Positions 14,813 through 40,471 of a DNA stretch of 64,000 bases are shown here, piece by piece. The position numbers were made by a program, and so were the translations under genes. The notes below the pieces were generated by a model. The model saw nothing but the letters and a program-made list of their open reading frames with translations. It was not told the DNA's origin and ran no database searches. The stretch is from Halobaculum sp. XH14 (GTDB lineage: Archaea > Halobacteriota > Halobacteria > Halobacteriales > Haloferacaceae), in contig NZ_CP134949.1 in assembly GCF_032116555.1 (NCBI RefSeq), positions 682,001 to 746,000 of the forward strand, read 5' to 3'. The stretch's first letter is position 1. Every line of letters begins with the position of its first letter.

Positions 14813-15133
14813 CTATTCGGTCTCCAGTAGTTCATCGATCTCCCAGAAGTCCATTGTCTCGTCCTGTTCTTCGTCGTAGAGTGCGACTGCTTTCACGCCT
14901 TCTTCCGGCTTCGTGTAGAGCAGGTCATATCGTTCATCGTTGCCGGTGTCGATGGAGAAGTAGGGCATGGTGCTGCCTTTGACTTCGTGACTGTAATCGC
15001 CGGCTTGGTCTTCAAGGATGGATCTGACTTTTTCGAGCGGCAGATTCACGGGGAAGATGTAGTCGCCGTCGTTGAGTTTGATAGAGCCGCCGAGTGGCTC
15101 GCTCAGGGTTTTGTCGTATTCTACACGTCCTAT
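14813..15133 (-). CDS. Hypothetical protein with ATA start, short paralogue of the 52-kb gene
   Basis: 106 residues from an ATA at 15133. The standard-start reading begins only at a GTG at 15049 and would lose EPLGGSIKLNDGDYIFP, which matches ALGGSILLDDGDYVLP in the protein at 51958-52911, so the upstream reading is real. The ATA lies 6 nt after GGTGA (15140-15144), the same spacing as for GTG starts in this operon. Last gene of the leftward small-gene operon. Confidence 0.65.
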   Translation of the reverse strand: MGRVEYDKTLSEPLGGSIKLNDGDYIFPVNLPLEKVRSILEDQAGDYSHEVKGSTMPYFSIDTGNDERYDLLYTKPEEGVKAVALYDEEQDETMDFWEIDELLETE

Positions 15134-15170
15134 ACACAGTCACCTATCCGGGTTCTTCTCAATGGTATTT

Positions 15171-15263
15171 TTATTCAATTTGGTCGAAGTCGCGGTTTCC
15201 GCATTTGGGACAGATACCCATGTCGTCCGGTTCTTTGTTGCCGCATTCGCTGCACTCCTTCAT
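15171..15263 (-). CDS. Thirty-residue zinc-ribbon miniprotein
   Basis: MKECSECGNKEPDDMGICPK is followed by CGNRDFDQIE: two CxxC knuckles, the minimum for a zinc ribbon. The ATG at 15263 follows GGAGGGAGATGATTTCAG, a good Shine-Dalgarno. It lies in the leftward operon between another miniprotein and the ATA-started gene. Such single ribbons often act as protein- or nucleic-acid-binding adaptors. Confidence 0.65.
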   Translation of the reverse strand: MKECSECGNKEPDDMGICPKCGNRDFDQIE

Positions 15264-15305
15264 CTGAAATCATCTCCCTCCACGAAGTCGATAAACCTGG
15301 CTCGT

Positions 15306-15398
15306 TCACCTGGACCGGATCAGGTCGTCTCCCCTGCAGGAGTTGCACAAGCCGAACATTGTAACGTTGTCACAGCCTTTCCGGACGCATTCCCGCAT
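15306..15398 (-). CDS. Thirty-residue cysteine-pair miniprotein
   Basis: MRECVRKGCDNVTMFGLCNS continues CRGDDLIRSR. The spacing CxxxxC ... CxxC suits a zinc site. The ATG at 15398 lies two bases after the stop of the DUF6884 gene and is preceded by GGAAGGTGG, so it is coupled to it. Confidence 0.58.
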   Translation of the reverse strand: MRECVRKGCDNVTMFGLCNSCRGDDLIRSR

Positions 15399-15400
15399 CT

Positions 15401-16099
15401 CTAACCACCTTCCAGCCAGTCGTTCCAGTCTGATTGTCCGTCGACGTCCGGTACATCCAGGTCCGGTTCTCTGTAGGAACGTACTGAGGATTGCCGTGAC
15501 TCAGTATCTTGGTTCCGGGTTTCTTCGTAGAACTCGGCCTCTTCCTTCAACCAGGCCATTTGCTCCCCGATTCCGGAGAAGTCCTGCTCCTGGAATGGGA
15601 ACCGGGTTTCCCAGGGAAACGGTTCGAACACATCGTTCTCTTTGAGAGGGTCGACGTAGTCGTCGCCGGCGAGTACGATTAATCGGCGGCAGTGCGGATT
15701 CTCTTCGGGAAACCCTGATTTCATGCCGAGCCAGGAAGCGAGTCCGTAGTGAACGCGGCGGGTCCAGAAGTCGAGCCGGTCGTTGTAGAGTGGTTCGTCC
15801 CAGGGATAGCTGGTGTGTTGGTAGGCTTCTGGTTCGACTGGTGCTGGTTCTCCTTCCAGGTCTCCTATGGTGGTGTTGTAGGGTTCTGTTTCGAGGCTGG
15901 GCCAGAGTACGTCGTGTTCGGCGGAGAGTATCGCCCAAGGCGTGGTCCCTTCCGGGGCGTCTTCCCCGATTTGTGACCGGGCCTCTGCGTATCGCTTCTT
16001 CAGCTGGAAGTACGTCGACGTGTAGAGATCCTCGGCAGGTACGGGTTCATTCTGTTTCTGCTGGCCGCAGCCAACCAAGACGTAGGTGCCGTCCTCGAT
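15401..16099 (-). CDS. DUF6884 family protein, probable ATC start
   Basis: 232 residues. YVLVGCGQQKQNEPVPAEDL followed by LYTSTYFQLKKRYAEA and WAILSAEHDVLWP is the DUF6884 signature. The first standard codon, TTG at 16078, falls inside the first strand of the domain; reading from the ATC at 16099 adds EDGTYV and restores it. That ATC follows the upstream TAG directly and is 7 nt after GGTGA (16107-16111). The biochemical role of DUF6884 is not settled; it is common in phage and defence contexts. Confidence 0.75.
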   Translation of the reverse strand: MEDGTYVLVGCGQQKQNEPVPAEDLYTSTYFQLKKRYAEARSQIGEDAPEGTTPWAILSAEHDVLWPSLETEPYNTTIGDLEGEPAPVEPEAYQHTSYPWDEPLYNDRLDFWTRRVHYGLASWLGMKSGFPEENPHCRRLIVLAGDDYVDPLKENDVFEPFPWETRFPFQEQDFSGIGEQMAWLKEEAEFYEETRNQDTESRQSSVRSYREPDLDVPDVDGQSDWNDWLEGG

Positions 16100-16327
16100 C
16101 TACGAATCACCTTCTCCGGGTTCGAGTGCTTCCCCAGCTTCTTCGATCGTGGCCGGGAAGATCATCAGATCCGGGTTTTCCTCCAAGGCGGTGTCGATAC
16201 AGTCCTCGTGGCTTTGGATGTAGTCGGGGACTCCAGAGTAGACGAATTTCAGGACTGGTTCTTCAAGATCTGTACCGGTGTAGAGTTCTGCGATGTAGTA
16301 GCCGTCGACCTCTCTGCCGTCTACTAT
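16100..16327 (-). CDS. Small hypothetical protein, non-canonical start
   Basis: About 75 residues (VDGREVDGYYIAELYTGTDL ... PDLMIFPATIEEAGEAL ...). The frame has no ATG, GTG or TTG near its front. Candidate starts are GTC at 16330 (9 nt after GGTGA), ATA at 16327 or GTA at 16324, which overlaps the preceding TAG. Clear coding composition and its fit between coupled genes make it real even though the start is uncertain. Confidence 0.6.
   Translation of the reverse strand: MVDGREVDGYYIAELYTGTDLEEPVLKFVYSGVPDYIQSHEDCIDTALEENPDLMIFPATIEEAGEALEPGEGDS
16107..16111 (-). promoter_or_regulatory. Shine-Dalgarno core deciding the ATC start of the DUF6884 gene
   Basis: GGAGAAGGTGA precedes the ATC at 16099 by 7 nt. 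GGTGA pairs with the 3-prime end of archaeal 16S rRNA. The only standard start, TTG at 16078, is 28 nt away, too far for this site. Confidence 0.6.
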
Positions 16328-16431
16328 GACCGGTGATTCTCACCTTGATTGAGTAAATGTAACCCGAAGAGAGTCGCCGCGACTCCTCCAAAATATGCCA
16401 GTAAAACCACATCCATACAGCTGAACGTCAC
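16324..16431 (-). CDS. Small single-pass membrane protein
   Basis: 35 residues from a GTG at 16431: TFSCMDVVLLAYFGGVAATL then FGLHLLNQGENHRS. One transmembrane helix spans about residues 6-26. The GTG lies 6 nt after GGTGA, and the gene overlaps the end of the 116-residue gene upstream, so it is translationally coupled. Confidence 0.62.
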   Translation of the reverse strand: MTFSCMDVVLLAYFGGVAATLFGLHLLNQGENHRS

Positions 16432-16778
16432 TCTGTATCACCTTCCAGTATCTCCGACACTGGCTCCAGGTCGGCCTCTTCCCGTGCCCGGTCGACGTTT
16501 TCCAAACTCGTTGACGGTCCGGCGGAGAGGAAGACTGCTTTCTTCGCTTCGAAGTACAGATCCTCCGGGATGTCGTAGTCGTCGAGGATGTCCTCGATCA
16601 GTTCTTCCTGCTTGTCCTCGTGGAGATAATGCCGTAGGTAGGTTGGCGGATCGTCTCTGACTGCGTCACCTGGGTCCAGGCTGCTGTAGTCGAGGCCGGG
16701 AGTGGCTTCTTCGTAGAGTGTGTCGAGTATTTCAAAGTAGGCGTCTTCCCATTCATCCTGTACGTCGTCGAGGTTCAC
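16428..16778 (-). CDS. Acidic hypothetical protein
   Basis: 116 residues from a GTG at 16778 (NLDDVQDEWEDAYFEILDTL ...). The GTG is 9 nt after GGTGA and overlaps the stop of the gene before it (GTGA). Mostly helical and acidic, no recognised family. Confidence 0.65.
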   Translation of the reverse strand: MNLDDVQDEWEDAYFEILDTLYEEATPGLDYSSLDPGDAVRDDPPTYLRHYLHEDKQEELIEDILDDYDIPEDLYFEAKKAVFLSAGPSTSLENVDRAREEADLEPVSEILEGDTE

Positions 16779-17269
16779 AGGGAAGGATCACCTTCGCCTT
16801 TCTGGGGTATGTAGTAGGGTTCGTTGCCGCTGAACTTCTCGACACGCTCCAGGTCAACCTCTTCCTCGACGTACTGGTCGATGGCTTCCTCCGCTGCTTC
16901 CAATGTGATCGCTCCTGATCTGCCGCCGAGTTGCTCTGGGTCCGTCCTGTAGAGTGCGTCGAGGCATGGCCCGTAGCCGTACTTGTTCATGATTCCGGCG
17001 CGGCTGCTCCACGGACCTTTCAGAGTGACTTCTTCTCCGTCGACGGTTTCGATCTCGTAGTGGCGTCCGTTGTACCCGTCTTGTTGGCCACCGTCCCAGG
17101 CGAAGAACTGGACGTAACCCGAGTCGTGTTCAGCGTACCATAGCCCCTGTTCCTCGCTGCCTTCAAACTCGAGGTCGCTGGTGTCGGGGATTTCGTCGAC
17201 GTATAGTATGAGTCGTGGGTCGTTTCCGAAGTCTTCCTTCCAGTCGATTTCAGCGTCTTCTAACTCGAT
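16775..17269 (-). CDS. Hypothetical protein with ATC start
   Basis: 164 residues. The first ATG (16990) is preceded in frame by 93 codons of convincing protein, including YAEHDSGYVQFFAWDGGQQD and YEIETVDGEEVTLKGPWSSR. The frame opens after a TGA inside the Shine-Dalgarno GGTGA, and the codon 6 nt later is ATC (17269); the GTG-started genes at 18396 and 16431 have exactly this geometry. The first domain looks beta-rich; function unknown. Confidence 0.68.
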   Translation of the reverse strand: MELEDAEIDWKEDFGNDPRLILYVDEIPDTSDLEFEGSEEQGLWYAEHDSGYVQFFAWDGGQQDGYNGRHYEIETVDGEEVTLKGPWSSRAGIMNKYGYGPCLDALYRTDPEQLGGRSGAITLEAAEEAIDQYVEEEVDLERVEKFSGNEPYYIPQKGEGDPSL

Positions 17270-17275
17270 TGTGTA

Positions 17276-17280
17276 TCACC
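17276..17280 (-). promoter_or_regulatory. Shine-Dalgarno core 6 nt before an ATC start
   Basis: AAGGTGA followed by TACACA and then ATC (17269). The gene at 18396 has AGGTGA, TACAGA, GTG: the same context with a normal start codon. This pair is the cleanest internal comparison for ATC acting as a start. Confidence 0.6.
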
Positions 17281-17652
17281 TTAGAGAGTTTTTGGTTGCA
17301 GATTTGTCTCGTCAGCTTTTACGACAATCACTCCCGTTGCTATTCTGGGTGCTGTATAGTATGTGGGCAAAACCCGGAAATTTACCTGCTCTCCCTCTTC
17401 AAAGTCATCAGGGTTCTGAGTCAAGACTATATACACCTTAGAATAACCGAAAATCCAGTCTGGAGTGCCTCTGATAAGTCTCTTTTTCCAAAGTGAATCT
17501 GGTTCTGCATCTACTATAACCCTAATCGCAGACCAGTCAGTATCATGCAAGCACTGAGTAGCCGGATAGTGAATAACCTCCTTGTTTTCTATGACTTGGC
17601 CGATCTTACCTTCTATCTCTTTGATCCCAACTCCTTTAGTCAGATCTACCAC
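17281..17652 (-). CDS. Hypothetical protein
   Basis: About 123 residues. The C-terminal part is clear (VIVDAEPDSLWKKRLIRGTP, FGYSKVYIVLTQNPDDFEEG). The GTG at 17652 overlaps the previous gene by 17 bases and has a weak ribosome site. An ATC at 17625, after AAAGGAG and just past the upstream stop, is an alternative start of the kind seen elsewhere in this operon. Family not recognised. Confidence 0.55.
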   Translation of the reverse strand: MVDLTKGVGIKEIEGKIGQVIENKEVIHYPATQCLHDTDWSAIRVIVDAEPDSLWKKRLIRGTPDWIFGYSKVYIVLTQNPDDFEEGEQVNFRVLPTYYTAPRIATGVIVVKADETNLQPKTL

Positions 17653-18160
17653 CTTCTGATTCAAGTTCTTCCTGTAGGATTTGCCGTCCGTGTGTACCGA
17701 GGTTGAACGCGGCCTGCTCCACCAGCTTCCGAGCTCCCTCGTCCTCATCGCTATTGTCAAAGTCGAGTTCTTTCTTGAGGTCGGCCAGCCAGAGATGGAA
17801 CTCCGGCTTGGTCACGAGGTCGGAGGTGCTGAGGATTTCTAGGTCTTCGTCGAGCTGGGTGTCGTCCTCGTTGTAGCTGAGAACGGTTTCTCTCCCGTTT
17901 GCAGGTGTGTAGACGGTGTGTTCGTAGGCCGTGACCTGCAGCCAGACTTCTTCTTCCGGCTCCGGTTCTTCCGTTGGGTCTGCCTGGATATCTTCCGGGA
18001 CTGATAGTTTGATGTATTCGGTGACGTCGAAGTCGGACTTGTCTTGGAAGAACTGAATGTCTTCCCTGCACTCCTTGCAGAAGTCGTCGTCGGAGCAGGA
18101 CTGGCACATATCCACCATCCTGGCTACGACTGATTTCGTCTCTTCCTCCATCGTCATCAC
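17636..18160 (-). CDS. Acidic protein with an N-terminal cysteine cluster
   Basis: 174 residues from a GTG at 18160, 9 nt after GGTGA. CQSC and CKEC near residues 20-32 suggest a zinc site, followed by a long acidic region with EEPEPEEEVWLQVTAYEHTV. Function unknown. It overlaps the preceding stop by four bases. Confidence 0.65.
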   Translation of the reverse strand: MMTMEEETKSVVARMVDMCQSCSDDDFCKECREDIQFFQDKSDFDVTEYIKLSVPEDIQADPTEEPEPEEEVWLQVTAYEHTVYTPANGRETVLSYNEDDTQLDEDLEILSTSDLVTKPEFHLWLADLKKELDFDNSDEDEGARKLVEQAAFNLGTHGRQILQEELESEGGRSD

Positions 18161-18396
18161 TGGTCGTTCTCACCTGCGGTGACTTCCTCGGCTTTCTCAA
18201 GAATATCTTCGAGTTCTTCTCGATCTATACCGATGATATCGTCCGGTATGAACTCGTTGTCACCAGTCTTCGGTCCCTGGTGTATCTGGATGTTGCCGTC
18301 GCCATAGATCAGGGCTCTGGTGATCATAGGTTCCCCTTGGAAATTTCCCTCAAACGCTATCGCTTGCTCGTAGTCGTCGTAGTCGCCTTCGCTCAC
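18157..18396 (-). CDS. Small hypothetical protein
   Basis: 79 residues from a GTG at 18396, 6 nt after GGTGA. Beta-rich first half (AIAFEGNFQGEPMITRALIY) and acidic helical end. It overlaps the next gene by GTGA, showing coupling. Not recognised. Confidence 0.62.
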   Translation of the reverse strand: MSEGDYDDYEQAIAFEGNFQGEPMITRALIYGDGNIQIHQGPKTGDNEFIPDDIIGIDREELEDILEKAEEVTAGENDQ

Positions 18397-18402
18397 TCTG
18401 TA

Positions 18403-26311: not shown

Positions 26312-26745
26312 TGGACCGGGTTCGAGACAACCTGTTTTTCGGAGATATCTACGACGCGGCTGACCACGAGTACTATCGGGAGAACGAGATCGACGCGGTG
26401 GTGAAGCTTTGTGGCATTAACCCTGTTCCAGAGTATCCGGACCATGTCGAGGTCGTGGATATGCGGATGCCGGACAGTGAGGAGAACGAGTTGGAGGAGG
26501 TTGCCAAGGCGGTTGATCTTATCGTGAAGAAGTTGGAGCGTGGGCAGACGGTTTTCGTTCACTGTGCTGCAGGTCAGAGTCGTTCAGTCACCGTTGCGGC
26601 TGCTGTTCATGCTATCTTGGAGAAAACTGGTTTTGACCAGGGTTTGGATAGGATTCGGGAGCTCCGGGATGTGCAGCCCCACCCGAAACTGCAGGAAAAT
26701 GGCGTCAGCATTGTCCAGGTCTTCAACGGGGAAACGGATTCTTAG
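26311..26745 (+). CDS. Dual-specificity protein phosphatase
   Basis: 144 residues from the ATG at 26311, which follows GGAGGGA. The phosphate-binding loop VHCAAGQSRSVTVAAA has the CX5R(S) signature, and the general-acid region VVDMRMPDSEEN carries the aspartate. N-terminus MDRVRDNLFFGDIYDAAD matches the family. It would remove phosphate from Ser/Thr/Tyr residues or from other phosphorylated molecules. It shares its end with the convergent ATPase gene. Confidence 0.9.
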   Translation: MDRVRDNLFFGDIYDAADHEYYRENEIDAVVKLCGINPVPEYPDHVEVVDMRMPDSEENELEEVAKAVDLIVKKLERGQTVFVHCAAGQSRSVTVAAAVHAILEKTGFDQGLDRIRELRDVQPHPKLQENGVSIVQVFNGETDS

Positions 26746-28142
26746 ATGTATTCTGCGAGGCTGGAGTCGCCGGAGCTGCTACTGGAATTGCTGAAATCCT
26801 TGCCTTGGCTCAACGTGTAGTCCAGGCTCTTCCATTTCTCGGATTGGTGCTTCTTCAGGTCGTTGTCACTGACCTCTTTTTCGACGTCATAGTAGTTGAG
26901 GTCGACGGGCACTGGTTTCCGGTTGCCGTGCTGGACCACGGCTTGACCGACGTCCAGGTTCTGGATGTACCGTTTCTGGATCTCGGTCAGCTTCATCGAC
27001 TCCGCTATCGATTTGAACTGCTTCCAGTCTTTCATCGGGAGCAGCATCTTGGTCCCAGTGTTGGCCTTCAGTGAGTCAGTGAGCTTGGTGGCTTCCTGGT
27101 CAGCGGCCATGATCCCGAGTCCGAACTCTCGTGCCCGCGCAGTCAGGTCGTCAATCTCCGGGATGCCAGCTGCGTCTGATTGTTCTTTCTTGTAACTGAA
27201 CGCTTGCTTCGCCTCGTCCCAGATCAGGAGTAGCTGGAGCTGGCCGTTCCGAGACCCGTTTTGGAACATGTATTCGTAGAGCCAGGCGAACAGGATTTCC
27301 TGGATGAAGTTCTGGATATCACGGTTCAAGCCGCCGAACTCAAAGACGACCACGTTCCGCTTCATGAGTTCGGGAAGGCTGTATCCTTGGCTGCAGTCGA
27401 AGATCGGTCCGGTTACCGTGGTCATCGGCTCCAACCTGTTGAGGACGGTGTCGCGGTAGTTCGACTCTTTTCGTACGAAGTTGACCTTGTCTGATTTGAT
27501 GAGGGCTTCCAGGTCGTGGAGACTTGGGTACGGCGGGGATCTGTCTCTGAATAGGTCGTATTCTTTGTAGAGTTCGGTGACATGGCTGAGGATGTAGTTC
27601 TTTGACCCTGAGAGTAGGTCTCCTGCGTGGCTGTAGATCTCGCTGAATACCATTGCCCACCGCAGCAGTCCGACGTTTTCCGGTGGCTGCAATGGGTTGA
27701 ACCTGAGTTTGTTCCAGGGGATTACGAGGACGTCCGTGGTTTCGTGGATGAGGTGGCGGTAGTCTCTTTTCCGGTCGAAGATCCAGCAGGGGGTGGAGAT
27801 CTGGTCGAGGATGTTGTAGTGGTTCGTGGTTTTCCCGGTTCCCGTGGCTCCTACTGTGAGCAGGTGCCGGGTGAGTTCGTCTTCCTTGATGGCGTACGTA
27901 CGTCCTTCACCCACTGTCTCTCCAAGGATCACGGGGCGGTCAGTGTAGGAGACGTTGGGTGTCTCGCCGTTGAACGGGTATTCCTGGTAGCTCTGGATGA
28001 ATACGTGAAGCCTCTGCTTGACCGCTTTCTTGACCCGGGGATTCTCTGCTACTGTGGCTTTCTGCAGCAGTTGCTTTGCCTTCGGATGATCCTGGATCCC
28101 AAGTCTTTCCAATTGCTGCTCAAGTGTTGAGAGGTCTTTCAT
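26742..28142 (-). CDS. VirB4/HerA-like ATPase
   Basis: 466 residues. The Walker A motif is GATGTGKTTN (about residues 99-108) after VILGETVGEGRTYAIKEDEL, and the Walker B is LLLIWDEAK. A helical insertion lies between them, and the C-terminal part (DLTARAREFGLGIMAADQEA) resembles VirB4/TraC and DUF87 motors. Such ATPases drive DNA transfer, DNA packaging or secretion. No relaxase, terminase or channel gene is nearby to decide between these. Confidence 0.85.
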   Translation of the reverse strand: MKDLSTLEQQLERLGIQDHPKAKQLLQKATVAENPRVKKAVKQRLHVFIQSYQEYPFNGETPNVSYTDRPVILGETVGEGRTYAIKEDELTRHLLTVGATGTGKTTNHYNILDQISTPCWIFDRKRDYRHLIHETTDVLVIPWNKLRFNPLQPPENVGLLRWAMVFSEIYSHAGDLLSGSKNYILSHVTELYKEYDLFRDRSPPYPSLHDLEALIKSDKVNFVRKESNYRDTVLNRLEPMTTVTGPIFDCSQGYSLPELMKRNVVVFEFGGLNRDIQNFIQEILFAWLYEYMFQNGSRNGQLQLLLIWDEAKQAFSYKKEQSDAAGIPEIDDLTARAREFGLGIMAADQEATKLTDSLKANTGTKMLLPMKDWKQFKSIAESMKLTEIQKRYIQNLDVGQAVVQHGNRKPVPVDLNYYDVEKEVSDNDLKKHQSEKWKSLDYTLSQGKDFSNSSSSSGDSSLAEYI

Positions 28143-28373: not shown

Positions 28374-28669
28374 TCTTCTGAGAACCGATCGACAAGCGCG
28401 TCGTAGCCTTCGTCTTCCAGTATCTCTATGGCTGTCTCTTTGTGCCAGATCGGGTTGTAAGGCTCTTCTATCCTGTATTGTGGGCCGTAGTGGTCGCTGA
28501 TGTAGAGGCCGAATGGGACGTCTTCGTGGTTGTCGAGGTATTCGTGGTCGCAGATGTACCTCTCGTGGATATTGTATTGGTCGCGGTCGATCCAGTCGTT
28601 CCAAACTATGTCATCGATCAGCTGTTCTTCGAGGGTGCGGCCGAACTCGTCGGTGTGGTCTTCCCCAAT
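28343..28669 (-). CDS. Hypothetical protein with ATT start and no ATG, GTG or TTG in the whole frame
   Basis: 108 residues, GEDHTDEFGRTLEEQLIDDI ... IEEPYNPIWHKETAIEILED ... The 109-codon frame has no standard start codon anywhere, yet composition is typical of its neighbours. It begins with ATT at 28669, 7 nt after the GGTGA (28677-28681) that also holds the upstream TGA, so it is the coupled last gene of the three-gene operon from 30291. The function is unknown. Confidence 0.68.
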   Translation of the reverse strand: MGEDHTDEFGRTLEEQLIDDIVWNDWIDRDQYNIHERYICDHEYLDNHEDVPFGLYISDHYGPQYRIEEPYNPIWHKETAIEILEDEGYDALVDRFSEDYLDSSSSTL

Positions 28670-28676: not shown

Positions 28677-28681
28677 TCACC
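28677..28681 (-). promoter_or_regulatory. Shine-Dalgarno core overlapping a stop codon, before an ATT start
   Basis: TGGTGATCC: the TGA that ends the upstream gene is part of GGTGA, a perfect match to the anti-Shine-Dalgarno, and ATT follows 7 nt later at 28669. The layout is that of a translationally coupled pair. Confidence 0.6.
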
Positions 28682-29279
28682 ATTCTATCTGGTCGGCTGA
28701 CTCCGCGAGTTCGGTCATGTCGTGGCTGTACCCCTCGGGTAGAGTGTATCCTCCGTCAGGAGCGAATTGATCAAGGCCAGACTGCTCTGTTTTGACTTCG
28801 ACCCCTTCCATCTCCTTTGCGTCGAGTTTGATCTTGTACAGGCCGGCGCTTTCGTATCGGTCCTGTTCTTCGGGATTGCTCTCCATGAGGTTCTCCATCA
28901 TCCTCTCGGCTTCTTCCATGGAGTCGTGGGCGATGTCGGCGGAATCGCCGTTCACCATCTTGTCGGAGATATAGTTCCCGTTCTCGTCTCTCCAAGCCCA
29001 GAAGTATTTCCGCGGTCGGCCTCCGTCAGTCATCAGATCGGTTTCTTCGAGATCTCCAAGTTCATCTTCCAGTTCCTCTATCCGGAGATCGTAGTGAGCG
29101 AGAGGAGCGTAGTTGAACAGGCCGTACTTCATCTCACCGTCTCGGGAAGCGTCGAGGAATAGCCAGTGTGGTTTCCTGAACTCGACGTATTCCTCGGTCT
29201 CGATTTTCTCCTGCTCCAGTTCTTGGATTTCCTGCTCGATTTCCAGTTCCTCAGTAAATGGTTCTGAAGCGTCTGAAAT
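28677..29279 (-). CDS. Hypothetical protein with ATT start
   Basis: 200 residues. The first ATG is at 29132, but 49 upstream codons read as convincing protein (ASEPFTEELEIEQEIQELEQ ... EFRKPHWLFLDASRDGE). The frame begins with ATT at 29279, directly after an in-frame TAG and 8 nt after GGTGA (29288-29292). A coiled coil is followed by a region with GRPRKYFWAWRDENGNYISD. Not recognised. Confidence 0.68.
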   Translation of the reverse strand: MSDASEPFTEELEIEQEIQELEQEKIETEEYVEFRKPHWLFLDASRDGEMKYGLFNYAPLAHYDLRIEELEDELGDLEETDLMTDGGRPRKYFWAWRDENGNYISDKMVNGDSADIAHDSMEEAERMMENLMESNPEEQDRYESAGLYKIKLDAKEMEGVEVKTEQSGLDQFAPDGGYTLPEGYSHDMTELAESADQIEW

Positions 29280-29292
29280 CTATGAGATCACC

Positions 29293-30291
29293 CTACGCCT
29301 CGATCTCGTATTCCTGCATGAGTTCTCGGACGGTTTCGCGTTCTCCTTCCCAGTACTCCTCGGCGTCAGGATCCTCGATCAGTTCGTTGGCACGGCTACG
29401 TACTGCGTTTTCTCCGAGGATGTCTGGATGGGGTATGCCTTCTCCGTATTCCAGGATTCCAGCTGCCTGCTCAAATCCTGTATCCAGCTGGTACTGCGGG
29501 ATGTCGTCTTCTGCGAGATGTGTTAGAGCGTAGGTTGCTGCGTTGTAGGTCTCGTACAGGGACGGATTCTCTGGGTCGTCGACTTCCTCCTGGACAGCAG
29601 TAATCAGGTCCGGTGTCGGGTTCTCCAGGTAACGATCTATCCCGGTGTCTTGCAGAACCAGCAGGGCTTCATCCTGGTTCATCAGGGTCCGGTCCTGTGC
29701 CTGTTCGAGCCTATTTTCGACTTCATCGATTCCCTCGATCGCAGAATCTACTGCGTGTATTGCCAGTCCTGGTTGGAACTCCTCCTCGTGAGTCTGTTCG
29801 TAGGTCTGATCAGCTACGAACGCCATCATACCGTTGCTGCAGACCTGCCGCATCGCCCCGTTCTCGTACTTGACGCCGTGGAAACCACTGTGACCGGACC
29901 GTACTCGGAGATCTGTTTCGATTACGTCGCCGGGCTGTGGCTCTACAGTCTGGTCGAGCCCAATCCGGGCGCTCATCTTGTGAACGGTCGGGGATAGGTT
30001 GACTCTGCCGCTGGGTTCGATATCTTCCTCCCTTTGTTCGATCCCGGTTCTGACGGCGTCGAGTATGTCGCCGTACTGGATTACGTTGTAGAAGTCTTCG
30101 TTGCTGGAGACGATGCCTGTTAGTCGGCCGTCGTCGGTCCAGAGACTGTCTCGGTAGGATGCTTCTTGCCATTCATCGAGGTCTTCGTGGTGTCCGAAGA
30201 CTTTCTGGCGTTCTACTTCGGGTATTTCGTCTTCTATGAGTTTTTCAAGTTCGTAGGAGTCGTCAAATCTGAGTGTGTCGCCTCTTGGAAT
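29293..30291 (-). CDS. DUF932-like mobile-element protein with ATT start
   Basis: 332 residues. The block SGFHGVKYENGAMRQVCSNG then MMAFVADQ is characteristic of DUF932, a family frequent on plasmids and phages and of unknown activity. The usual reading (ATG 29976) lacks the 105 N-terminal residues, which include TLRFDDSYELEKLIEDEIPE and TGIVSSNEDFYNVIQYGDIL. The first codon is ATT at 30291, 6 nt after GGTGA. A TATA-like CTTATAAAAA upstream (about 30330-30339) gives a short leader with this ribosome site. Confidence 0.72.
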   Translation of the reverse strand: MPRGDTLRFDDSYELEKLIEDEIPEVERQKVFGHHEDLDEWQEASYRDSLWTDDGRLTGIVSSNEDFYNVIQYGDILDAVRTGIEQREEDIEPSGRVNLSPTVHKMSARIGLDQTVEPQPGDVIETDLRVRSGHSGFHGVKYENGAMRQVCSNGMMAFVADQTYEQTHEEEFQPGLAIHAVDSAIEGIDEVENRLEQAQDRTLMNQDEALLVLQDTGIDRYLENPTPDLITAVQEEVDDPENPSLYETYNAATYALTHLAEDDIPQYQLDTGFEQAAGILEYGEGIPHPDILGENAVRSRANELIEDPDAEEYWEGERETVRELMQEYEIEA

Positions 30292-30297: not shown

Positions 30298-30302
30298 TCA
30301 CC
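30298..30302 (-). promoter_or_regulatory. Shine-Dalgarno core 6 nt before the ATT start of the DUF932-like gene
   Basis: AGGTGA, then ATCTCT, then ATT at 30291. The TGA within the site is the in-frame stop that closes the reading frame upstream, so no further upstream start is possible. Confidence 0.62.
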
Positions 30303-31489: not shown

Positions 31490-31612
31490 GTGATTGAGGT
31501 TTTCCAGCAGCACCAGGCTTTCTGGCTACTGGTTTTCTTTGTCCTGTTTCTCGTCACCGCGTTCTACGTCGTACAGGGATTGAAGAAGATAGGAGCGGCT
31601 CTGTTCGGTTAA
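31490..31612 (+). CDS. Forty-residue single-pass membrane protein
   Basis: IEVFQQHQAFWLLVFFVLFL then VTAFYVVQGLKKIGAALFG. One transmembrane helix (about 10-30) and a short basic tail. The GTG at 31490 follows GGAGGTTGA, which includes the stop of the surface-protein gene. It converges on the HerA-like ATPase gene with a four-base overlap. Confidence 0.65.
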   Translation: MIEVFQQHQAFWLLVFFVLFLVTAFYVVQGLKKIGAALFG

Positions 31613-33156
31613 ACCGGGCTGTAGACCTGGCTCTCATTCCCGTAACGCTCCACAGTCTCTTTCTGCAGAATGTTTGTCTCCAGTAGTTGGTCGAGGACGC
31701 GCTGGGTCTTACTGGATCCAAACGGTGCGTCATCTTCCCGGTAGCATTTCGACTTGGATGGTCTCTCGTCGTTTTCCTCTATGTACCGGCGGATGAACTC
31801 CAGTAACTGCTGCTCGTCACTGGACAAATCGCTGCCCTGGTCCTCTGTTTCTGGCTCGGAGTTTTCTTCGACTGTATCGACTTCTTTGAGATCTGGTGTG
31901 GAGGCGGTAAATCGGTCCTGTAACCGGTCGATCTGGTTCTGTGTCGGCGCGGTTGGCAGGGTGAATGCTTGACGGACTTCGACGCGGAGCTTCGGATAGT
32001 CTCGGGACTGGATGATTGCCTCGCCGGTAGCCAGGTCCTGGATCTCTCTTCCGTCGTCGAGGAACTTGGAGGCGTAGTCGAAGTACTCGCCGTGAAGGAA
32101 CACGGACACCGTGTTTTCCCGGACGTGCTTGTGGTTCCGGTTGAAGTCCATCGGGCTCTGGGAGACGATGACGACGTGGACTCCGAACTTCCGGGCTTCG
32201 CGTACCAGGTCTTGGATGGCGTCGGCGGCAGCTCCTTTTGTGAAATTGTGTGCCTCTTCCAGGAAGACGAACAAGGGGGTATCTCGTCGGTCGATCTTGG
32301 CGAGCTCGGTGAACACCTTGTTGACGAACTCTTGCTTCTCATCGTCGTCCAGGTCTTTCAGCGTGGCTGCGTTCACCCCGGAGAACAATTCGTGGATGTC
32401 GTCCGGCTTGTCGAGCAGCTGGTCGCCGCCGATCCAGTACTGGTCAGCTGCAAGTCCTACGCCTTCGTCGTGATCCGGGTTCGGCAGGGAAACACCGACT
32501 TCCTCAGTGTCTGATGGCGAGATCGAGAGGACGTCGTAACCGAGTGACGCGATATTTTCCAGGAGAACCCGCTTCAGGTAGCTCTTTCCAGAACCAGTTT
32601 CTCCGGTGATGTAGTAGTGCGGCAGCTCTGCCGGATCGAATCCGACGACCTGGTTAGTCCCGGTCAGGGTGCCGATCATCGGCCCTGTGTTCGGAACCTC
32701 TTCTGCGTACGCCACGGTCTCGGCTTTCAATCCTTGAAGCACGGAGCTGACCGCGCGTGCCGGAGTCGCCTTCGACCGTTCAACCGTGGACTCCCCGACC
32801 TCGACGTCCCGCAACGCAACCGCCATGTACTGCTCGGCAGAACTCCGGCGAAGATCCTTCAACGACTCCCCGAGGTCGTCGTCGACCTGATCCAATAGTT
32901 GCTCGAAGCCATCCGGGTTCAACAAGCCGGTATGCTCTAACCGGTTGAAGACTCGTGGCTCCTCGAGTTCCTCGACGTGCAACTTGAACTTCGGACCCTG
33001 CAGGACTTGCTTCACCTTCCTCCGATGCAGGTCGAAGACTTCGTCGACGTGCCTCTCCGCTGCCTCACCGACCCGGTCTTCCGGGATGACTTCGGGATCG
33101 GTGGAGAACTGGAACAGGTAGGCCAGTGAGACACCGTTAGCCCGCCACTGCTCCAC
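31609..33156 (-). CDS. HerA/DUF87-like ATPase (main frame)
   Basis: 515 residues in this frame. Walker A is ITGETGSGKSYLKR (about 178-191), Walker B LFVFLEEAHNF, followed by GVHVVIVSQSPMDF and a C-terminal winged-helix-like region (about 455-515, KTQRVLDQLLETNILQKE). HerA-type rings translocate DNA or drive secretion. The true N-terminus lies further upstream in another frame: coiled-coil residues VRGELQQAESRLQQILETLE sit in frame before the nominal GTG start. Last gene of the operon from 36386. Confidence 0.85.
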   Translation of the reverse strand: MEQWRANGVSLAYLFQFSTDPEVIPEDRVGEAAERHVDEVFDLHRRKVKQVLQGPKFKLHVEELEEPRVFNRLEHTGLLNPDGFEQLLDQVDDDLGESLKDLRRSSAEQYMAVALRDVEVGESTVERSKATPARAVSSVLQGLKAETVAYAEEVPNTGPMIGTLTGTNQVVGFDPAELPHYYITGETGSGKSYLKRVLLENIASLGYDVLSISPSDTEEVGVSLPNPDHDEGVGLAADQYWIGGDQLLDKPDDIHELFSGVNAATLKDLDDDEKQEFVNKVFTELAKIDRRDTPLFVFLEEAHNFTKGAAADAIQDLVREARKFGVHVVIVSQSPMDFNRNHKHVRENTVSVFLHGEYFDYASKFLDDGREIQDLATGEAIIQSRDYPKLRVEVRQAFTLPTAPTQNQIDRLQDRFTASTPDLKEVDTVEENSEPETEDQGSDLSSDEQQLLEFIRRYIEENDERPSKSKCYREDDAPFGSSKTQRVLDQLLETNILQKETVERYGNESQVYSPV

Positions 33157-33229
33157 GGCCTGTTTCTTCTCCTCCAGCGTCTCCAGGATCTGCTGAAGCC
33201 GGCTCTCGGCCTGCTGAAGCTCTCCTCGG

Positions 33230-33656
33230 ACCTCGTCCTGTTCTGCTGCATCACCGCTTCCAAACTACTTACAGAGTTCCTGACCGCGACCGAGACCGAC
33301 TCCTGCCGGTCCCGAAGCTCCTGTGCCTGTCGCTGCAGACGTCCGGCCTCTGCCAGGAGTTCAGCTACTTCGTCGTGCTCGTCGAGGACTTGGACCGAGG
33401 TCGTGTCGCAGTAGTCGACGCTGAGGGAGAAGCTGGGGAACGTGTTGGCGAGGTACTTGTTGAGTTTGCCGAGGTTGCGGTCCCACATCTCCTGGCCTTC
33501 CTCGTCCTGCTTCACCAAGCGGTACGTCTTCGATGCCCGGACCAGGAACCGGTCCTCTACCAGGTGCGTGACCTCTACCGTGGCCTGGTTGTCCGTATCC
33601 CAGAAAAACTCGGTGCAGGGTTCGACCTCTGTACTGCCGATTTTAACAAGTTCCAT
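33230..33656 (-). CDS. N-terminal part of the HerA-like ATPase in a different frame
   Basis: From the ATG at 33656 this frame encodes a beta-rich domain (STEVEPCTEFFWDTDNQATV, FSLSVDYCDTTSVQVLDE) and the start of a coiled coil (LLAEAGRLQRQAQELRDRQE). At about 33235-33290 the coiled coil passes to the frame of the ATPase by a -1 shift. The frame stays open to 33012, but its residues beyond the switch are arginine/serine/tryptophan-rich noise. I see no classic slippery heptamer, so an indel is the simplest reading. Confidence 0.6.
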
Positions 33657-36386: not shown

Positions 36387-36431
36387 GGGTTGATCCACCT
36401 CTCGGATTGTCGGTTGCTACGTGGCTTCGTC

Positions 36432-36563: not shown

Positions 36564-37544
36564 ATGAAACAGAAACGAGTCTCTCCAACCCGTGTAGAAG
36601 TCCGGGAACCTGAGAAACGATCCGGCGGTGAATACTACCCCTTGCCACTGCCTGATGAAATCGAGTTACTGGAAATCGACCAAGGGGACACGGTTGTACT
36701 GGAACTGGTCGAAGAAGAGGTCCAGGGCAAATCCATCCGGTACATCCAAGGACACAGTGGGGAGGCTCCTCGGAACCAAATGACTGTTAGACGGCAGTCT
36801 GGATGTTCTCCGGAGCTGTTCATACAGTGTCCTGCCGCTTTCTCCGGTGAACACGGGTCACCGCCGTTCAACGAACTAGGGAAAGGTGATCGGCTTGTTG
36901 TCGAGGTCCTTGTCGATGAGGGAGAGTTCCGGATTTACGGCTACGACGATTACCGATATCGGTTCCAACAGCTTTCAGAGGATGATGGTCCGCCACCGGA
37001 GCTGCCGCTGGCAATTCCTTTGATCGCCTCTAACAACGACGGATACACGGATTTGTCCGGTGAGAAAGAGGGCCAGGAGTTCGAGATCGTGCCTTTCCAC
37101 GGCCAAGATGAGGTTTTTGTGGAGCTTGGGGAGGAGATGGGTAAACAGGATTTGATGCGCGGCAATCGGTTTCGCGGTATCCCTAATCTGCTTCGGGCAG
37201 CTGGAGAACGGACGGGAATACCTGAAAGATCTGTCGACAAGATCGAGATATACTGGGACTCAGAAGACGTTTCGATGAATCCTGACGGCGAGAAAATCTA
37301 CGAGGAACATGACACAGATTCTGCGAAAGTGGTGCTTCCGGAGCAGGGTTCGTATTTGATTATAGTTGAAGCCGGTGAGGACTCAGGGAGTCATTGGCTT
37401 GCAGCGGACCCAAATATTGCGCTGACTGATCCAATCAGAGACAAATGGAGTGCTTTCCTGTTCGAGGACTCGGAAGAGTTGCAGGCTCCGAAGATCTACA
37501 TCCCAGTTCCGAGAACGGGTAAAGGTCACTGGGATACTTACTGA
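36564..37544 (+). CDS. Beta-rich hypothetical protein
   Basis: 326 residues. The first third reads as an AbrB- or OB-like small beta domain (GDTVVLELVEEEVQGKSIRY), and similar strands recur later (GDRLVVEVLVDEGEFRIYGY, QEFEIVPFHGQDEVFVELGE). No family recognised. It is the first gene rightward of the GGTTAAC repeats. Confidence 0.62.
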   Translation: MKQKRVSPTRVEVREPEKRSGGEYYPLPLPDEIELLEIDQGDTVVLELVEEEVQGKSIRYIQGHSGEAPRNQMTVRRQSGCSPELFIQCPAAFSGEHGSPPFNELGKGDRLVVEVLVDEGEFRIYGYDDYRYRFQQLSEDDGPPPELPLAIPLIASNNDGYTDLSGEKEGQEFEIVPFHGQDEVFVELGEEMGKQDLMRGNRFRGIPNLLRAAGERTGIPERSVDKIEIYWDSEDVSMNPDGEKIYEEHDTDSAKVVLPEQGSYLIIVEAGEDSGSHWLAADPNIALTDPIRDKWSAFLFEDSEELQAPKIYIPVPRTGKGHWDTY

Positions 37545-37570
37545 ATTAGTCTTCCCCAGTGGAAATCAGA

Positions 37571-37607
37571 GGGTGTTCTATCTCTGGTTCACCTGGGCAG
37601 AACACCC
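37571..37607. repeat. Inverted repeat with 9-bp arms after the 326-residue gene
   Basis: GGGTGTTCT (37571-37579) and AGAACACCC (37599-37607) are perfect complements with a 19-base loop. The following 190 bases up to the convergent gene contain no supported gene. The repeat could be a transcription end or a small structured RNA. Confidence 0.45.
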
Positions 37608-37795
37608 CGTGGTTCACCCCTGTATCAGTCCGGGCAGCATACCGTGCGTGAATCACGGGACGGCGGCAGGTTTCAGGTTAGAGCACCCCCACGGGAAAAT
37701 TGGGTCAGGCAGGGGAGAAAAGGTAGGTCGTAACTGAGAGAAAAGAGCAGCTGAGTTGAAGAAAAAAGAGAGGGAAAATGTGGGCGCGGAGAAAG

Positions 37796-38629
37796 TCAGC
37801 GGTGCGGCTGACGATACATCTCTAATTTCCGCTGGTACTCATCCCAGTCGCTTTCCTGAATCAATTCCTCGTCCTCATCCTCGTACTCCACATCTTCCTC
37901 GTAGCTTCCCCATCCGAAACTGGAGTAGACTGAGTCGCTTCGGTCGGTGACTATCTGAGGTTCCATGTGGAACTGGTCGGCTTTCTTGATTTTCTGGTCG
38001 ATCTGGTAGACGGTTTCTTCCTCGGGTTCGCTGTATCTGAGGTTCTCCCATCCAAATGCTGAGTCCAGGCGGTGTCCTACAGTTGCTCCCGCGAGTTCTC
38101 CTGTGTCTTTGATCCGGGCAAATTGGAATCTGCTGCCATCTCTGAAGTAGTAGAGGTCGCCTTTGTAGTCGTATAGGAAGACTGAGACGCTGCCAGAGGT
38201 GTTCTTCAAGGAGTTTTGAACCGCGTTCACTGTATCGCGGTCTTTCCGTTTGTAGATGTCTCTCAGGAGTTGGTAGCTGTCGGCTCTCCCATCCTTGAAG
38301 TGGTTTTCCGGTGTGACTGAGCCGTTATGGACGAGAACGTTCTCCCGGTGCTTGAACGGGTGACTGTTCTTGAAGCAGACCGCGCCTTGAGTCGCTAAAC
38401 GAAGGTGTAGGACGATAAAACGGCTGTCCTTGTATCTCTCCACGATTTCTTCGATGTCCTCGAAGCCGAGTTGTTCTTCGCTCTTGTAGACTTCTCTGTC
38501 TTCATTGAATACTCCGAATCCGTCGCTGTTTCTCGGCGCGGCTTCATGGACGGCGACGTGGAGCAGTCGGATTAGGTTGGAGGTTTTGATTGTTCCTGTG
38601 GGGTTGTGTAGGAAGAAGATTTCACACAT
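37796..38629 (-). CDS. Class II glutamine amidotransferase (Ntn hydrolase)
   Basis: 277 residues. The N-terminus MCEIFFLHN exposes Cys2 as the nucleophile after Met removal. Further marks are RNSDGFGVFNEDREVY, LHLRLATQGAVCFKNSHPFK and VLVHNGSVTPEN, the glutamine-site and oxyanion elements of GATase II. The enzyme frees ammonia from glutamine for a partner. It overlaps the amidoligase gene by eight bases, so the likely acceptor reaction is that of the amidoligase. Confidence 0.88.
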   Translation of the reverse strand: MCEIFFLHNPTGTIKTSNLIRLLHVAVHEAAPRNSDGFGVFNEDREVYKSEEQLGFEDIEEIVERYKDSRFIVLHLRLATQGAVCFKNSHPFKHRENVLVHNGSVTPENHFKDGRADSYQLLRDIYKRKDRDTVNAVQNSLKNTSGSVSVFLYDYKGDLYYFRDGSRFQFARIKDTGELAGATVGHRLDSAFGWENLRYSEPEEETVYQIDQKIKKADQFHMEPQIVTDRSDSVYSSFGWGSYEEDVEYEDEDEELIQESDWDEYQRKLEMYRQPHR

Positions 38630-39365
38630 TGTAGTTCACCTGTTCTTGAATTGTAGAGTTGTAGCTGGTTTCTGAGCTGTTTTGAATTGATTCTGCTGTA
38701 AGTTCGGCTTCTAAAGTGTCGTTGTAGAGTCCTTGACGTAGGTATGAGTTGATCGATGTCGTCACTATATTGACCGCGTTCATCACGTCTTCTGCTGACT
38801 GCATGGCGGGGAATAGCCGGAACTCGATGGTGTCGTATTTCCCTTTCATAAACGTGATTCTCCGGTATTTCTGCCTCCGGCTCTTTAGCTGACTGTCTAT
38901 CATCCAGCTATTCTCTAACGGGCGGCAGTAGTACCCGTAAGTGGAATCCGGGTCAAATGGATGGAGGTCTTCGTTTCTCACCCGTTTTCTGAGTCGTGGA
39001 CAGGTGTCCCAGAGGTCTGAGTCCTTGAGGCGGTCGATAAACCAGTTATGGAACTTGAGGGATGCGAGTCGGTAGTAATCTCGGTCGTTGTTCAATGAGA
39101 CGTGGATATGCAGTCCCATTGAGGCGTTTATCTCCGAGATTATCTCGTATAACTGGTTTAGAGAGCCTTCGAGCCTGTTTTGCCCGTCTGGGTAACTGAG
39201 CGGTTCGGAGACGTATTCGATGCGTTTTGCGTGGGGTTTTTCGGTTCTTAGAGAGCCGTCGTGTACGGAGTTGAAGTAGGGTATTGCCCGTTCTGTCGGG
39301 GTTGTGCGGTCGTCAATGCCGCACTCTACTTCTACTCCTATTTGGTCTATCCATAGTCCTGAAAT
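38622..39365 (-). CDS. Amidoligase (COOH-NH2 ligase family) with ATT start
   Basis: 247 residues. IDQIGVEVECGI (N-terminal strand with two Glu), HDGSL, RIEYVSEPLS, NASMGLHIHVSLNND and TIEFRLFPAM are the ordered motifs of amidoligase/glutamate-cysteine-ligase-like enzymes. The first ATG (39119) would remove 82 residues including IGVEVE. The frame starts with ATT at 39365, 6 nt after GGTGA, and is closed upstream by TGA. Amidoligases are known to occur beside class II amidotransferases, as here, and are thought to form amide bonds on peptides or proteins. Confidence 0.83.
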   Translation of the reverse strand: MSGLWIDQIGVEVECGIDDRTTPTERAIPYFNSVHDGSLRTEKPHAKRIEYVSEPLSYPDGQNRLEGSLNQLYEIISEINASMGLHIHVSLNNDRDYYRLASLKFHNWFIDRLKDSDLWDTCPRLRKRVRNEDLHPFDPDSTYGYYCRPLENSWMIDSQLKSRRQKYRRITFMKGKYDTIEFRLFPAMQSAEDVMNAVNIVTTSINSYLRQGLYNDTLEAELTAESIQNSSETSYNSTIQEQVNYNV

Positions 39366-39371
39366 CGTTTG

Positions 39372-39376
39372 TCACC
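39372..39376 (-). promoter_or_regulatory. Shine-Dalgarno core 6 nt before the ATT start of the amidoligase
   Basis: AGGTGA, CAAACG, ATT. A TATA-like TTTTTTAAAG (about 39397-39406) lies upstream on the same strand, so the message has a short leader carrying this site. Confidence 0.65.
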
Positions 39377-39448
39377 TATACCAACACTGTGATGTTATCT
39401 TTAAAAAAGTATAATCATAGTGACTATTTGAGGTGAAACAACCGTACA

Positions 39449-39928
39449 ATGCCCGACACACTACAACAATACCGGGAAACTGAGATGGATGAGGACGGGA
39501 TATTCCGCGCCCTTGTCCAGCGACAAAAATCAGGGAAACTCAAACTCTACATAGAAGGATCAGAAGAACTCGAAGACTTCTTCCAGACCGAAGAAACCGA
39601 GCAATCCAGTCAATGGAAGAGCGGAGACAGTTACCACGATTATTACCTTCGACAGTACGAGAGAAACGGTGAATCCGACCTTGCCGAGTATTTCAGCGAC
39701 AAGCACGACAAGTTCGGCAGTGACTACGTGCAGAGCGGGAAGATAAACGTTGGACTGCTACGCACCGTTGGACTGAGCGAAGGAGTTGTTTTCCAGATTC
39801 CAGAAACGTACTCCGAGGAGACCCTCAAGGAGTCGGTAGAATCCTTGAAGACTGTTATCGAAGAGATTTATGAGGAGTTCATCAGACCGATGAACGTCAC
39901 CACTCAGATTTCCATTCAGGAGTTCTAA
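39449..39928 (+). CDS. Hypothetical protein
   Basis: 159 residues, ATG at 39449. Charged and mainly helical (YRETEMDEDGIFRALVQRQK; ESVESLKTVIEEIYEEFIRP). It is divergent from the amidoligase gene, whose promoter region it shares. No family recognised. Confidence 0.62.
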   Translation: MPDTLQQYRETEMDEDGIFRALVQRQKSGKLKLYIEGSEELEDFFQTEETEQSSQWKSGDSYHDYYLRQYERNGESDLAEYFSDKHDKFGSDYVQSGKINVGLLRTVGLSEGVVFQIPETYSEETLKESVESLKTVIEEIYEEFIRPMNVTTQISIQEF

Positions 39929-39932
39929 CTGC

Positions 39933-39984
39933 ACCCCTTCCCATTTTCCCCTCTTTCTTTCTCTTTTTCGCGCCCTATTTTTTC
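39933..39984 (+). terminator. Pyrimidine-rich tract after the 159-residue gene
   Basis: About 50 bases of almost only C and T, with runs such as TTTTCCCC, TCTTTCTTTC and ATTTTTT. Archaeal transcription often ends in T-rich tracts, so this is a likely end for the upstream message. About 170 further bases to 40156 carry no gene but contain a TATA-like GCATATAAAG near 40112. Confidence 0.45.
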
Positions 39985-40144
39985 TGAACCGCCGTACTTG
40001 TTGCCGCCCCTGTTTTCCCCGGAGAGTTTGTTCCTGTTTGAGCCTTTGCGCGTATCCGCGTACACGCACCCGTGAGAAGGTCGCCGGAATCACGCACCGC
40101 ATCAGCATAATGCATATAAAGATAATTCGGTCAACCCTTTCCCA

Positions 40145-40149
40145 GGTGA
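40145..40149 (+). promoter_or_regulatory. Shine-Dalgarno core 7 nt before an ATT start
   Basis: CAGGTGA, ACTACCA, ATT at 40157. The TATA-like element near 40112-40120 would give a message starting just before this site. Confidence 0.6.
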
Positions 40150-40156
40150 ACTACCA

Positions 40157-40471
40157 ATTACATCCGAACAAGAACGCGAGATCGAATCTATACTCAAGAA
40201 ATTCCCATTCCACGGCAGAGACACAGACCGCCAAGTCACCGTGCTATCCTCATACCTGGTAGAGGCACTCGGCAACAACAAGACCGACACAGCCGAAGAA
40301 CTCGAGGTGGATAGGAACACGGTGAACAAGATCGAAAAATCTTGGAACAGTCTGTCCCTATCTGAGAAATTGAAGCTGATCGACTTCCTCCGCAGGGAGG
40401 TTGCCGAGAGACACTTCACAGATCTAGAGGCAGTGTCCGTTGATTCGGGGACCGGCGGCCAGACCGCATAA
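40157..40471 (+). CDS. Helix-turn-helix protein with ATT start
   Basis: 104 residues: TSEQEREIESILKKFPFHGR, then VTVLSSYLVEALGNN and KTDTAEELEVDRNTVNKIEK, the last a helix-turn-helix of the sigma/Xre-like type. The first standard codon (GTG 40241) would lose 28 residues of the first helices. The ATT at 40157 has GGTGA 7 nt before it. Likely a regulator of the small-gene run that follows. Confidence 0.68.
   Translation: MTSEQEREIESILKKFPFHGRDTDRQVTVLSSYLVEALGNNKTDTAEELEVDRNTVNKIEKSWNSLSLSEKLKLIDFLRREVAERHFTDLEAVSVDSGTGGQTA

Follow-up and report, generated by a model that had tools for sequence, protein, structure and literature searches.

Probable AUU, AUC and AUA start codons behind Shine-Dalgarno sites in a family of haloarchaeal integrative elements

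Within a 64,000-nt stretch of the haloarchaeon Halobaculum sp. XH14 (contig NZ_CP134949.1, positions 682,001 to 746,000 of the forward strand; hereafter the window, whose positions serve as coordinates throughout), eight genes appear to start with AUU, AUC or AUA codons (collectively AUH) placed 6-8 nt behind the Shine-Dalgarno (SD) motif GGTGA. Most of the window is part of an integrated element of ~97-99 kb and ~53% GC, in a haloarchaeon of ~70% GC. We compared this element with relatives, taken as the surroundings of the DUF932 gene in 12 haloarchaeal genomes out of 15 with a match, for a total of 13 elements and 698 kb including our own. Judged by codon, spacing, conservation, association with GGTG and restriction to the elements within our sample, all of which are read from sequence, the AUH codons very probably are genuine translation starts, conserved in evolution. 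We further consider it probable that they are SD-anchored starts belonging to this element family and read by the ordinary initiator tRNA-Met.

Eight reading frames open at AUH codons behind GGTGA

A first-pass annotation of this DNA had reported the eight codons, and direct reading of the sequence confirmed all of them, together with their coordinates and open frames (Table 1). GGTGA precedes the codon by 6, 7, 6 and 7 nt at 15133, 16099, 17269 and 28669, and by 8, 6, 6 and 7 nt at 29279, 30291, 39365 and 40157, as described there. An in-frame stop was said to lie usually just upstream, which holds for seven of the eight genes (0-15 nt 5′ of the start; 81 nt at 40157), and at four sites this stop is the TGA within GGTGA itself. 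The GTG at 18396, offered as a comparison start, had likewise been read correctly. The host 16S rRNA ends in ...GGATCACCTCCT at its 3′ end, and GGTGA therefore falls inside the expected SD sequence, GGAGGTGATCC.

The open reading frames (ORFs) set up by these codons span 104-332 codons. The next in-frame ATG, GTG or TTG (NTG) lies 28 codons downstream at 15133, 7 at 16099, 93 at 17269, 49 at 29279, 105 at 30291, 82 at 39365 and 28 at 40157, and the ORF at 28669 contains none at all. We agree with the earlier claim that gene calling limited to these three codons would truncate or lose proteins, as we do with the assignment of the element to archaea. Across the whole element, 11 of 102 called genes lack an NTG codon within 25 codons of the onset of coding; seven of these show AUH after GGTGA and one CTG, with three not assigned. 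The weakest of the eight sites are 40157, which has a distant stop and no homologue in the relatives' stretches, and 16099, where a TTG lacking an SD follows 7 codons downstream and the homologue in the Haloarcula vallismortis element (G083) carries an extra N-terminal part.

Table 1. Probable AUH-started genes and other features of the element, in window coordinates
Feature	Coordinates	Strand	Details
ORF, 106 aa	14813..15133	-	ATA start 15133; GGTGA 15140-15144; no Pfam match
ORF, 232 aa, DUF6884	15401..16099	-	ATC start 16099; GGTGA 16107-16111
ORF, 164 aa	16775..17269	-	ATC start 17269; GGTGA 17276-17280
ORF, 108 aa	28343..28669	-	ATT start 28669; GGTGA 28677-28681
ORF, 200 aa	28677..29279	-	ATT start 29279; GGTGA 29288-29292
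DUF932 protein, 332 aa	29293..30291	-	ATT start 30291; GGTGA 30298-30302
Amidoligase_2-like protein, 247 aa	38622..39365	-	ATT start 39365; GGTGA 39372-39376
Small protein, 104 aa	40157..40471	+	ATT start 40157; GGTGA 40145-40149
Small ORF	16100..16327	-	Possible ATA start 16327; GGTGA 16340-16344 at 12 nt; assignment uncertain
16-bp direct repeat	6688..6703	+	Second copy at 103637, on the right-hand composition boundary 96.9 kb away
Tyrosine integrase	7282..8283	+	95% identical in G007, 68% in G083
HerA/TrwB-like ATPase	26742..28142	-	Found in all 13 elements
Orc1/Cdc6-like protein	43227..44534	+	GTG start, 6 nt past GGTGA

AUH codons are enriched at a fixed distance from GGTGA

For each GGTGA we examined the codons that follow at distances of 6, 7 and 8 nt, keeping those that opened at least 80 codons and had an in-frame stop at most 30 nt upstream, and computed expected counts from trinucleotide frequency. 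P values are nominal because this filter was set after the sites had been seen, GGTGA sites are shared among places and the elements share ancestry; the controls passed through the same filter. In our own element, AUH occupies 9 of 65 such places (2.4 expected). These comprise seven of the eight reported codons, 40157 failing the filter, and two codons right of the window. Genes 73202 and 82518 (coordinates extending those of the window), for which the relatives' stretches gave no match, also use AUH. When the stretch from the upstream stop to 25 codons past the candidate codon holds no NTG, the fraction is 7 of 20.

Across the 13 elements, AUH was found at 47 of 316 places (ATT 20, ATC 18, ATA 9) compared with 13.2 expected. 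The same places hold ATG 25 times, GTG 16, TTG 6 and CTG 5; behind an SD site, AUH is no less common in these elements than ATG. At other spacings AUH falls to background (11/312 at 3-5 nt, 7/208 at 9 nt and 16/316 at 10-12 nt), and 47/316 at spacing 6-8 compares with 34/836 at the others (Fisher p 2.8e-9). Restricting the analysis to places without a nearby NTG gives 27 of 101, with 4.2 expected. Taken singly, seven of the 13 elements reach p < 0.05.

The excess is confined to the elements within our sample

The first-pass annotation had proposed a scan for ATH after GGTGA compared with chance; an excess is present in the 13 elements and absent from the sampled host, plasmid and virus controls. 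A 220-kb sample of the host's own chromosome has AUH at 3 of 221 places, with no excess over a background of 1.3%. Two further host replicons give 4/87 (C2, 159 kb, 53-64% GC; 3.2 expected) and 1/195 (C3, 196 kb; 2.5 expected), and host DNA flanking the relatives' elements gives 3/320, again without excess. Five haloviruses (HGTV-1, HF2, BJ1, phiCh1 and HVTV-1; the first 50 kb of each, 42 kb for BJ1; 242 kb in all) have AUH at none of 147 places, where ATG occurs 13 times and GTG twice.

By these counts AUH starts do not appear to be a general property of the host, whose sampled chromosome and replicons are at background, as are the flanks of the relatives, nor a general habit of haloviruses, at least of those sampled. 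Within our sample, the habit is therefore the element family's rather than that of the cell or of haloarchaeal tailed viruses. A gene caller based on codon usage flagged 67 of 195 genes of the 70% GC host as lacking a start; because the flagged genes are most probably wrong frames, we did not use this host part as a control.

Homologues keep AUH at the same protein position

The widest comparison is provided by the DUF932 gene. We searched 293 genomes of the order, 16 of which had a match, and 391 genomes of the class, an overlapping set in which 31 had a match in 20 genera (our own genome is counted in both), and added a further 20 loci from a contig collection. Leaving out G325 and the second place in G427, we read 30 loci from the order and class sets and the 20 contig loci; 15 duplicate rows were excluded. 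Among the resulting 35 distinct sequences, the start is ATT in 19, ATC in nine, ATG in five and CTG in one, with one (L081) not assignable. AUH thus starts 28 of the 34 assignable sequences, and GTG, TTG and ATA were assigned to none of the 35. One ATG (L091) was assigned by eye, a GTG being present five codons upstream.

The ATG spellings require three changes on the DUF932 tree, and the site therefore looks like one start spelled differently. GGTG stands 6-7 nt upstream in all 28 AUH-started sequences and at 6-8 nt in one of the five ATG forms (Fisher p 1e-4, uncorrected for kinship), an association that is partly built in, as our script selected the candidate codon with the best SD; the selected codon nevertheless occupies one and the same protein position in AUH and ATG forms. 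In an alignment of 18 sequences, 9 of 33 invariant residues are encoded before the window gene reaches its first ATG. The upstream in-frame stop moves among the relatives, from 3 to >200 nt away, as the start position stays constant, and on this ground we rejected read-through of the TGA in GGTGA. Searched against viral contigs, the DUF932 protein had no match and the alignment as query had 23 distant ones; neither phages nor plasmids yielded a DUF932 match.

Other families behave similarly. In the 15133 family, each of the three elements that yielded the gene has ATA, with the G083 and G007 homologues also 6 nt past GGTGA. The 17269 gene has ATC in the window and in G083, and ATC without a clear SD in G007; upstream of the first ATG, the window and G083 proteins share 87% amino acid identity, with substitutions mostly at third positions. 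The 28669 family shows ATT in the window and ATC in both G083 and G007. In the 29279 family we found ATT (window and G083), ATC (G007 and G251) and ATA (G257, G187 and G238), the homologues in G257, G187, G238 and G251 lacking the first ~13 residues of the window protein; a 43-aa match in G041 was not assigned. For the Amidoligase_2-like gene at 39365, no homologue was found within the relatives' fetched stretches. Between the window and G083, substitutions before the first NTG favour third codon positions in the two genes that align best; they number 24, 13 and 36 at codon positions 1, 2 and 3 for DUF932 (104 codons), and 7, 4 and 29 for the 17269 gene (92 codons).

The first-pass annotation had allowed that homologues with ATG at the same position might expose these codons as isolated sequencing errors. 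Homologues are not simply ATG-started: they keep ATT, ATC or ATA, and this conservation rules out isolated sequencing errors and pseudogenes. The trait runs through the element family in many haloarchaeal genera.

Upstream genes do not account for all AUH starts

At 29 of 42 AUH sites, an ORF of at least 60 codons ends between -60 and +30 nt from the start. The remaining 13 sites lack such a gene end and include DUF932, where a TATA-like sequence (TTATAAAA) lies ~45 nt upstream of 30291 and no upstream gene ends close by. Re-initiation alone is therefore insufficient, and we rejected it as the sole route, which would place every AUH gene close behind another.

At 18 of the 42 sites, a frame of 30 or more codons that begins upstream with NTG stays open across the start. 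At 16 of these the crossing frames stop within 31 nt of the AUH codon, and at the other two they continue for 85 and 2167 nt. At the other 24 sites no such frame crosses the start, making a frameshift from upstream unlikely there.

How AUH codons may be read

In the reading we favour, a strong and exactly spaced SD helix (GGTG(A), usually 6-7 nt before the codon) would fix the 30S subunit, and initiator tRNA-Met (anticodon CAU) would be tolerated on AUH although the third base is mismatched. The proteins would then begin with methionine, and their expression would be low and adjustable, set by SD strength, coupling to the upstream gene and the fidelity of aIF1. Such a scheme would resemble that of bacterial infC but serve many genes. 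Three parts of it, namely decoding by tRNA-Met, low expression and the role of aIF1, are what we infer beyond the alignments. The occurrence of AUG, AUU, AUC and once CUG in one family, and of AUU, AUC and AUA in another, points to a single initiator. Furthermore, AUH spellings come with a strict SD and the DUF932 ATG spellings mostly without, which suggests that SD strength compensates for a poor codon. As described in PMC6237735 and PMC8211752, aIF1 counteracts non-AUG initiation complexes in archaea, and we would therefore expect weak, aIF1-sensitive expression from AUH genes. In an all-codon test cited by PMC10666635, ATT had ~0.3% of the efficiency of ATG.

Several observations weigh against this reading. 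Six of the 13 elements show no significant excess when taken singly (G007, G276, G102, G041, G182 and G055); before the DUF932 start, G276 has GGTGG instead of GGTGA at its ATT, and G102, G041 and G055 have ATG there. The third-position excess is weak or absent in three of five window-G083 gene pairs (7/9/6, 39/19/45 and 19/18/23 at positions 1/2/3). If AUH were simply permitted behind an SD, host genes with SD sites should use it too, and those sampled show no excess. Finally, a Haloferax volcanii reporter is described in PMC4574771 as giving 5-37x weaker expression from GUG than from AUG and none from UUG, and PMC3986360 reports no gain in initiation from SD motifs in H. volcanii 5′ untranslated regions. 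On these accounts AUH after an SD would not be expected to be efficient in every host; either the elements circumvent weak non-AUG and SD initiation, or low expression is intended.

A factor encoded by the element could instead relax start selection or recognize GGTGA-N6-AUH, in which case the starts would be real and the genes silent or weak without the element. This would fit the lack of an AUH excess in the host's chromosome sample and its two replicons, one of them nearer in GC, the use of AUH both in conserved genes and in those for which the relatives gave no match, and the mostly AUH-started DUF932 gene, which as the bait is present in all 13 elements. Nevertheless, a Pfam comparison of 46 element proteins, out of some 100-115 called genes, showed no translation factor, and both SUI1/aIF1 genes found in the host are chromosomal and outside the element; we think such a factor unlikely. 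Equally tentative is the thought that the family runs a start programme of its own, in which a shared element-borne factor for GGTG-N6-8-AUH would confine translation of a set of its genes to cells where the element resides, with the non-AUG starts acting as a lock that prevents expression in an unsuitable context.

We consider it improbable that another initiating tRNA, either Ile-tRNA or an initiator-like tRNA borne by the element, makes AUH cognate. The three AUH codons are precisely those for isoleucine, and some elements do carry tRNA genes (27 in G083, four in G007 and two, with introns, in our own). However, in G257, a 38-kb element whose two composition boundaries both lie within the fetched DNA, AUH occupies 5 of 14 places and the one tRNA gene found is a tRNA-Thr at its edge, so that element-borne tRNAs are probably not required. 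ATG also occupies the same DUF932 site, by the three changes on the tree noted above.

That the starts are an illusion of annotation, the true ones being downstream NTG codons or products of frameshifting or stop read-through from upstream, seems very improbable to us. An NTG codon does follow in seven of the eight reported genes, and upstream frames cross the start at the 18 sites noted above. Yet the 28669 ORF has no NTG to start from, several genes would lose 49-105 residues that can be aligned between elements, the crossing frames at 16 sites end within 31 nt, as overlapping upstream genes would, and the fixed spacing from GGTGA would be left unexplained. Chance or composition, whereby AT-richer elements would carry more ATH close to GGTGA, could draw on the six elements that are singly not significant and on the counting of each GGTGA at three spacings, but it is hardly credible given background levels at other spacings in the same elements, conserved homologous sites and a replicon of 53-64% GC (C2) at background.

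Comparison with known near-cognate starts

To our knowledge, AUU, GUC and similar near-cognate starts have been described in single genes. The infC gene of E. coli, encoding translation initiation factor IF3, starts with AUU, has a third-base mismatch to the initiator tRNA and is under initiation-factor control. It shares the AUU start with the genes studied here; unlike them it is one autoregulated bacterial gene, whereas in the archaeal mobile elements AUU, AUC and AUA probably start many genes that are unrelated to one another.

Streptomyces sigR is described in PMC5472188 as starting with GTC behind an extended SD (AGGAGGTG), with GTC in 32 of 34 species, GTT in two and repression by IF3. 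It resembles the AUH genes in following an SD with a third-base-mismatched start, but is a single, experimentally shown bacterial gene, where our set comprises many genes known from sequence. Halobacterium salinarum has one GUC start on a leaderless mRNA, as mentioned in PMC4574771; it is likewise a third-base-mismatched haloarchaeal start, differing in being single and leaderless rather than SD-led and shared by many genes. For distal operon genes of H. volcanii, PMC3986360 describes a GGAGGUGA-type SD at fixed distance and proposes re-initiation. Both cases are haloarchaeal and have a GGAGGUGA-type SD at fixed distance; the parts of that paper available to us mention no AUH starts, and about one third of our AUH genes have no gene that ends close upstream.

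We found no report of sets of AUU-type starts in archaea or mobile elements in the open-licence PubMed Central literature. The near-cognate start itself is known; its use here is unusually extensive, conserved in many haloarchaeal genera and, within our sample, confined to one mobile-element family. These genes form a natural test set for the strictness of start-codon selection by archaeal ribosomes and aIF1, and for when haloarchaea use SD sites, though H. volcanii 5′ untranslated regions reportedly do not. Elements of the family reside in the genomes of cultured strains, such as Haloarcula vallismortis ATCC 29715 and Natrinema altunense AJ2, making start selection easily testable.

The element and its relatives

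The host genome is 3.68 Mb, and its fetched chromosomal DNA has ~70% GC. The ~53% GC region spans ~5.5 kb to ~103.6 kb in window coordinates, running into the neighbouring stretches. The left copy of the 16-bp repeat (Table 1) lies slightly more than 1 kb inside the left-hand composition boundary, and the two copies may mark the element's ends as a candidate attachment site. Two genes are common to all 13 elements, DUF932 (the bait) and the HerA/TrwB-like ATPase.

A tyrosine integrase and composition boundaries, as expected of an integrative and conjugative element, are both present, and a tRNA-Thr or tRNA-Gly gene lies at an edge in 8 of the 12 relatives. G257 carries a conserved module including VirB4-like and TraG/TrwB-like ATPases, homologues of which occur in 10 other elements. 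We therefore describe the family as integrative and probably conjugative in part. Our own element departs from known integrative and conjugative elements in that no homologue of the VirB4-type gene was found in it, nor in the fetched part of G083; its ATPases are HerA/TrwB-like and FtsK-like. No clear capsid, portal or tail gene of tailed viruses was seen in a subset of the element's proteins (nine large proteins against PHROGs and 46 against Pfam), the PHROGs scan giving just weak ATPase/terminase and coiled-coil matches. The 40157 protein has weak helix-turn-helix matches under the Pfam cut-offs. The element also encodes a DruA-like (Druantia) protein at 62809-63960 (-) and a 1535-aa FtsK/SpoIIIE-like protein at 55104-59711 (-).

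The G083 element of Haloarcula vallismortis has 26-27 tRNA genes in ~3.6 kb (L038 and neighbours). Among them are Ile(UAU), Ile(GAU) and a Met(CAU) whose anticodon stem is GGG:CCC, a hallmark of initiator tRNA. The two tRNA-like genes of our own element lie right of the window (L006:18082-18257 and L006:18271-18385); they have introns of ~98 and ~29 nt, and ARAGORN missed them when run with its intron option off.

Other start signals and open frames

A second start signal places GTG exactly 9 nt past GGTGA, often inside GGTGAGAATCAGTA-GTG, as at 16778, 18160, 40759, 41651 and 53698 in the window and in relatives. Over the 13 elements GTG occurs 22 times at spacing 9 and 16 times at 6-8, with no AUH enrichment at spacing 9. 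GTA also appears enriched at 6-8 nt (13 versus 4.2), which we attribute to its often directly preceding GTG in this motif.

The small ORF at 16327 has an identical layout in G083, and its first NTG is at codon 51 of the open frame. At 51958-52890 (-), a 320-codon open frame has its first NTG at codon 126, without an SD; its G083 homologue follows the 28669 homologue within one open frame, and the window copy may therefore be a 5′-truncated gene. An 896-codon frame (L007:3366-6056) has a CTG 7 nt past GGTGA at its start and its first NTG 80 codons on, and its product carries a Gins51_C domain at residues 791-835. At 31609-33252 (-), a 551-codon ATPase frame appears to be coding almost from its beginning, and its first NTG is codon 36.

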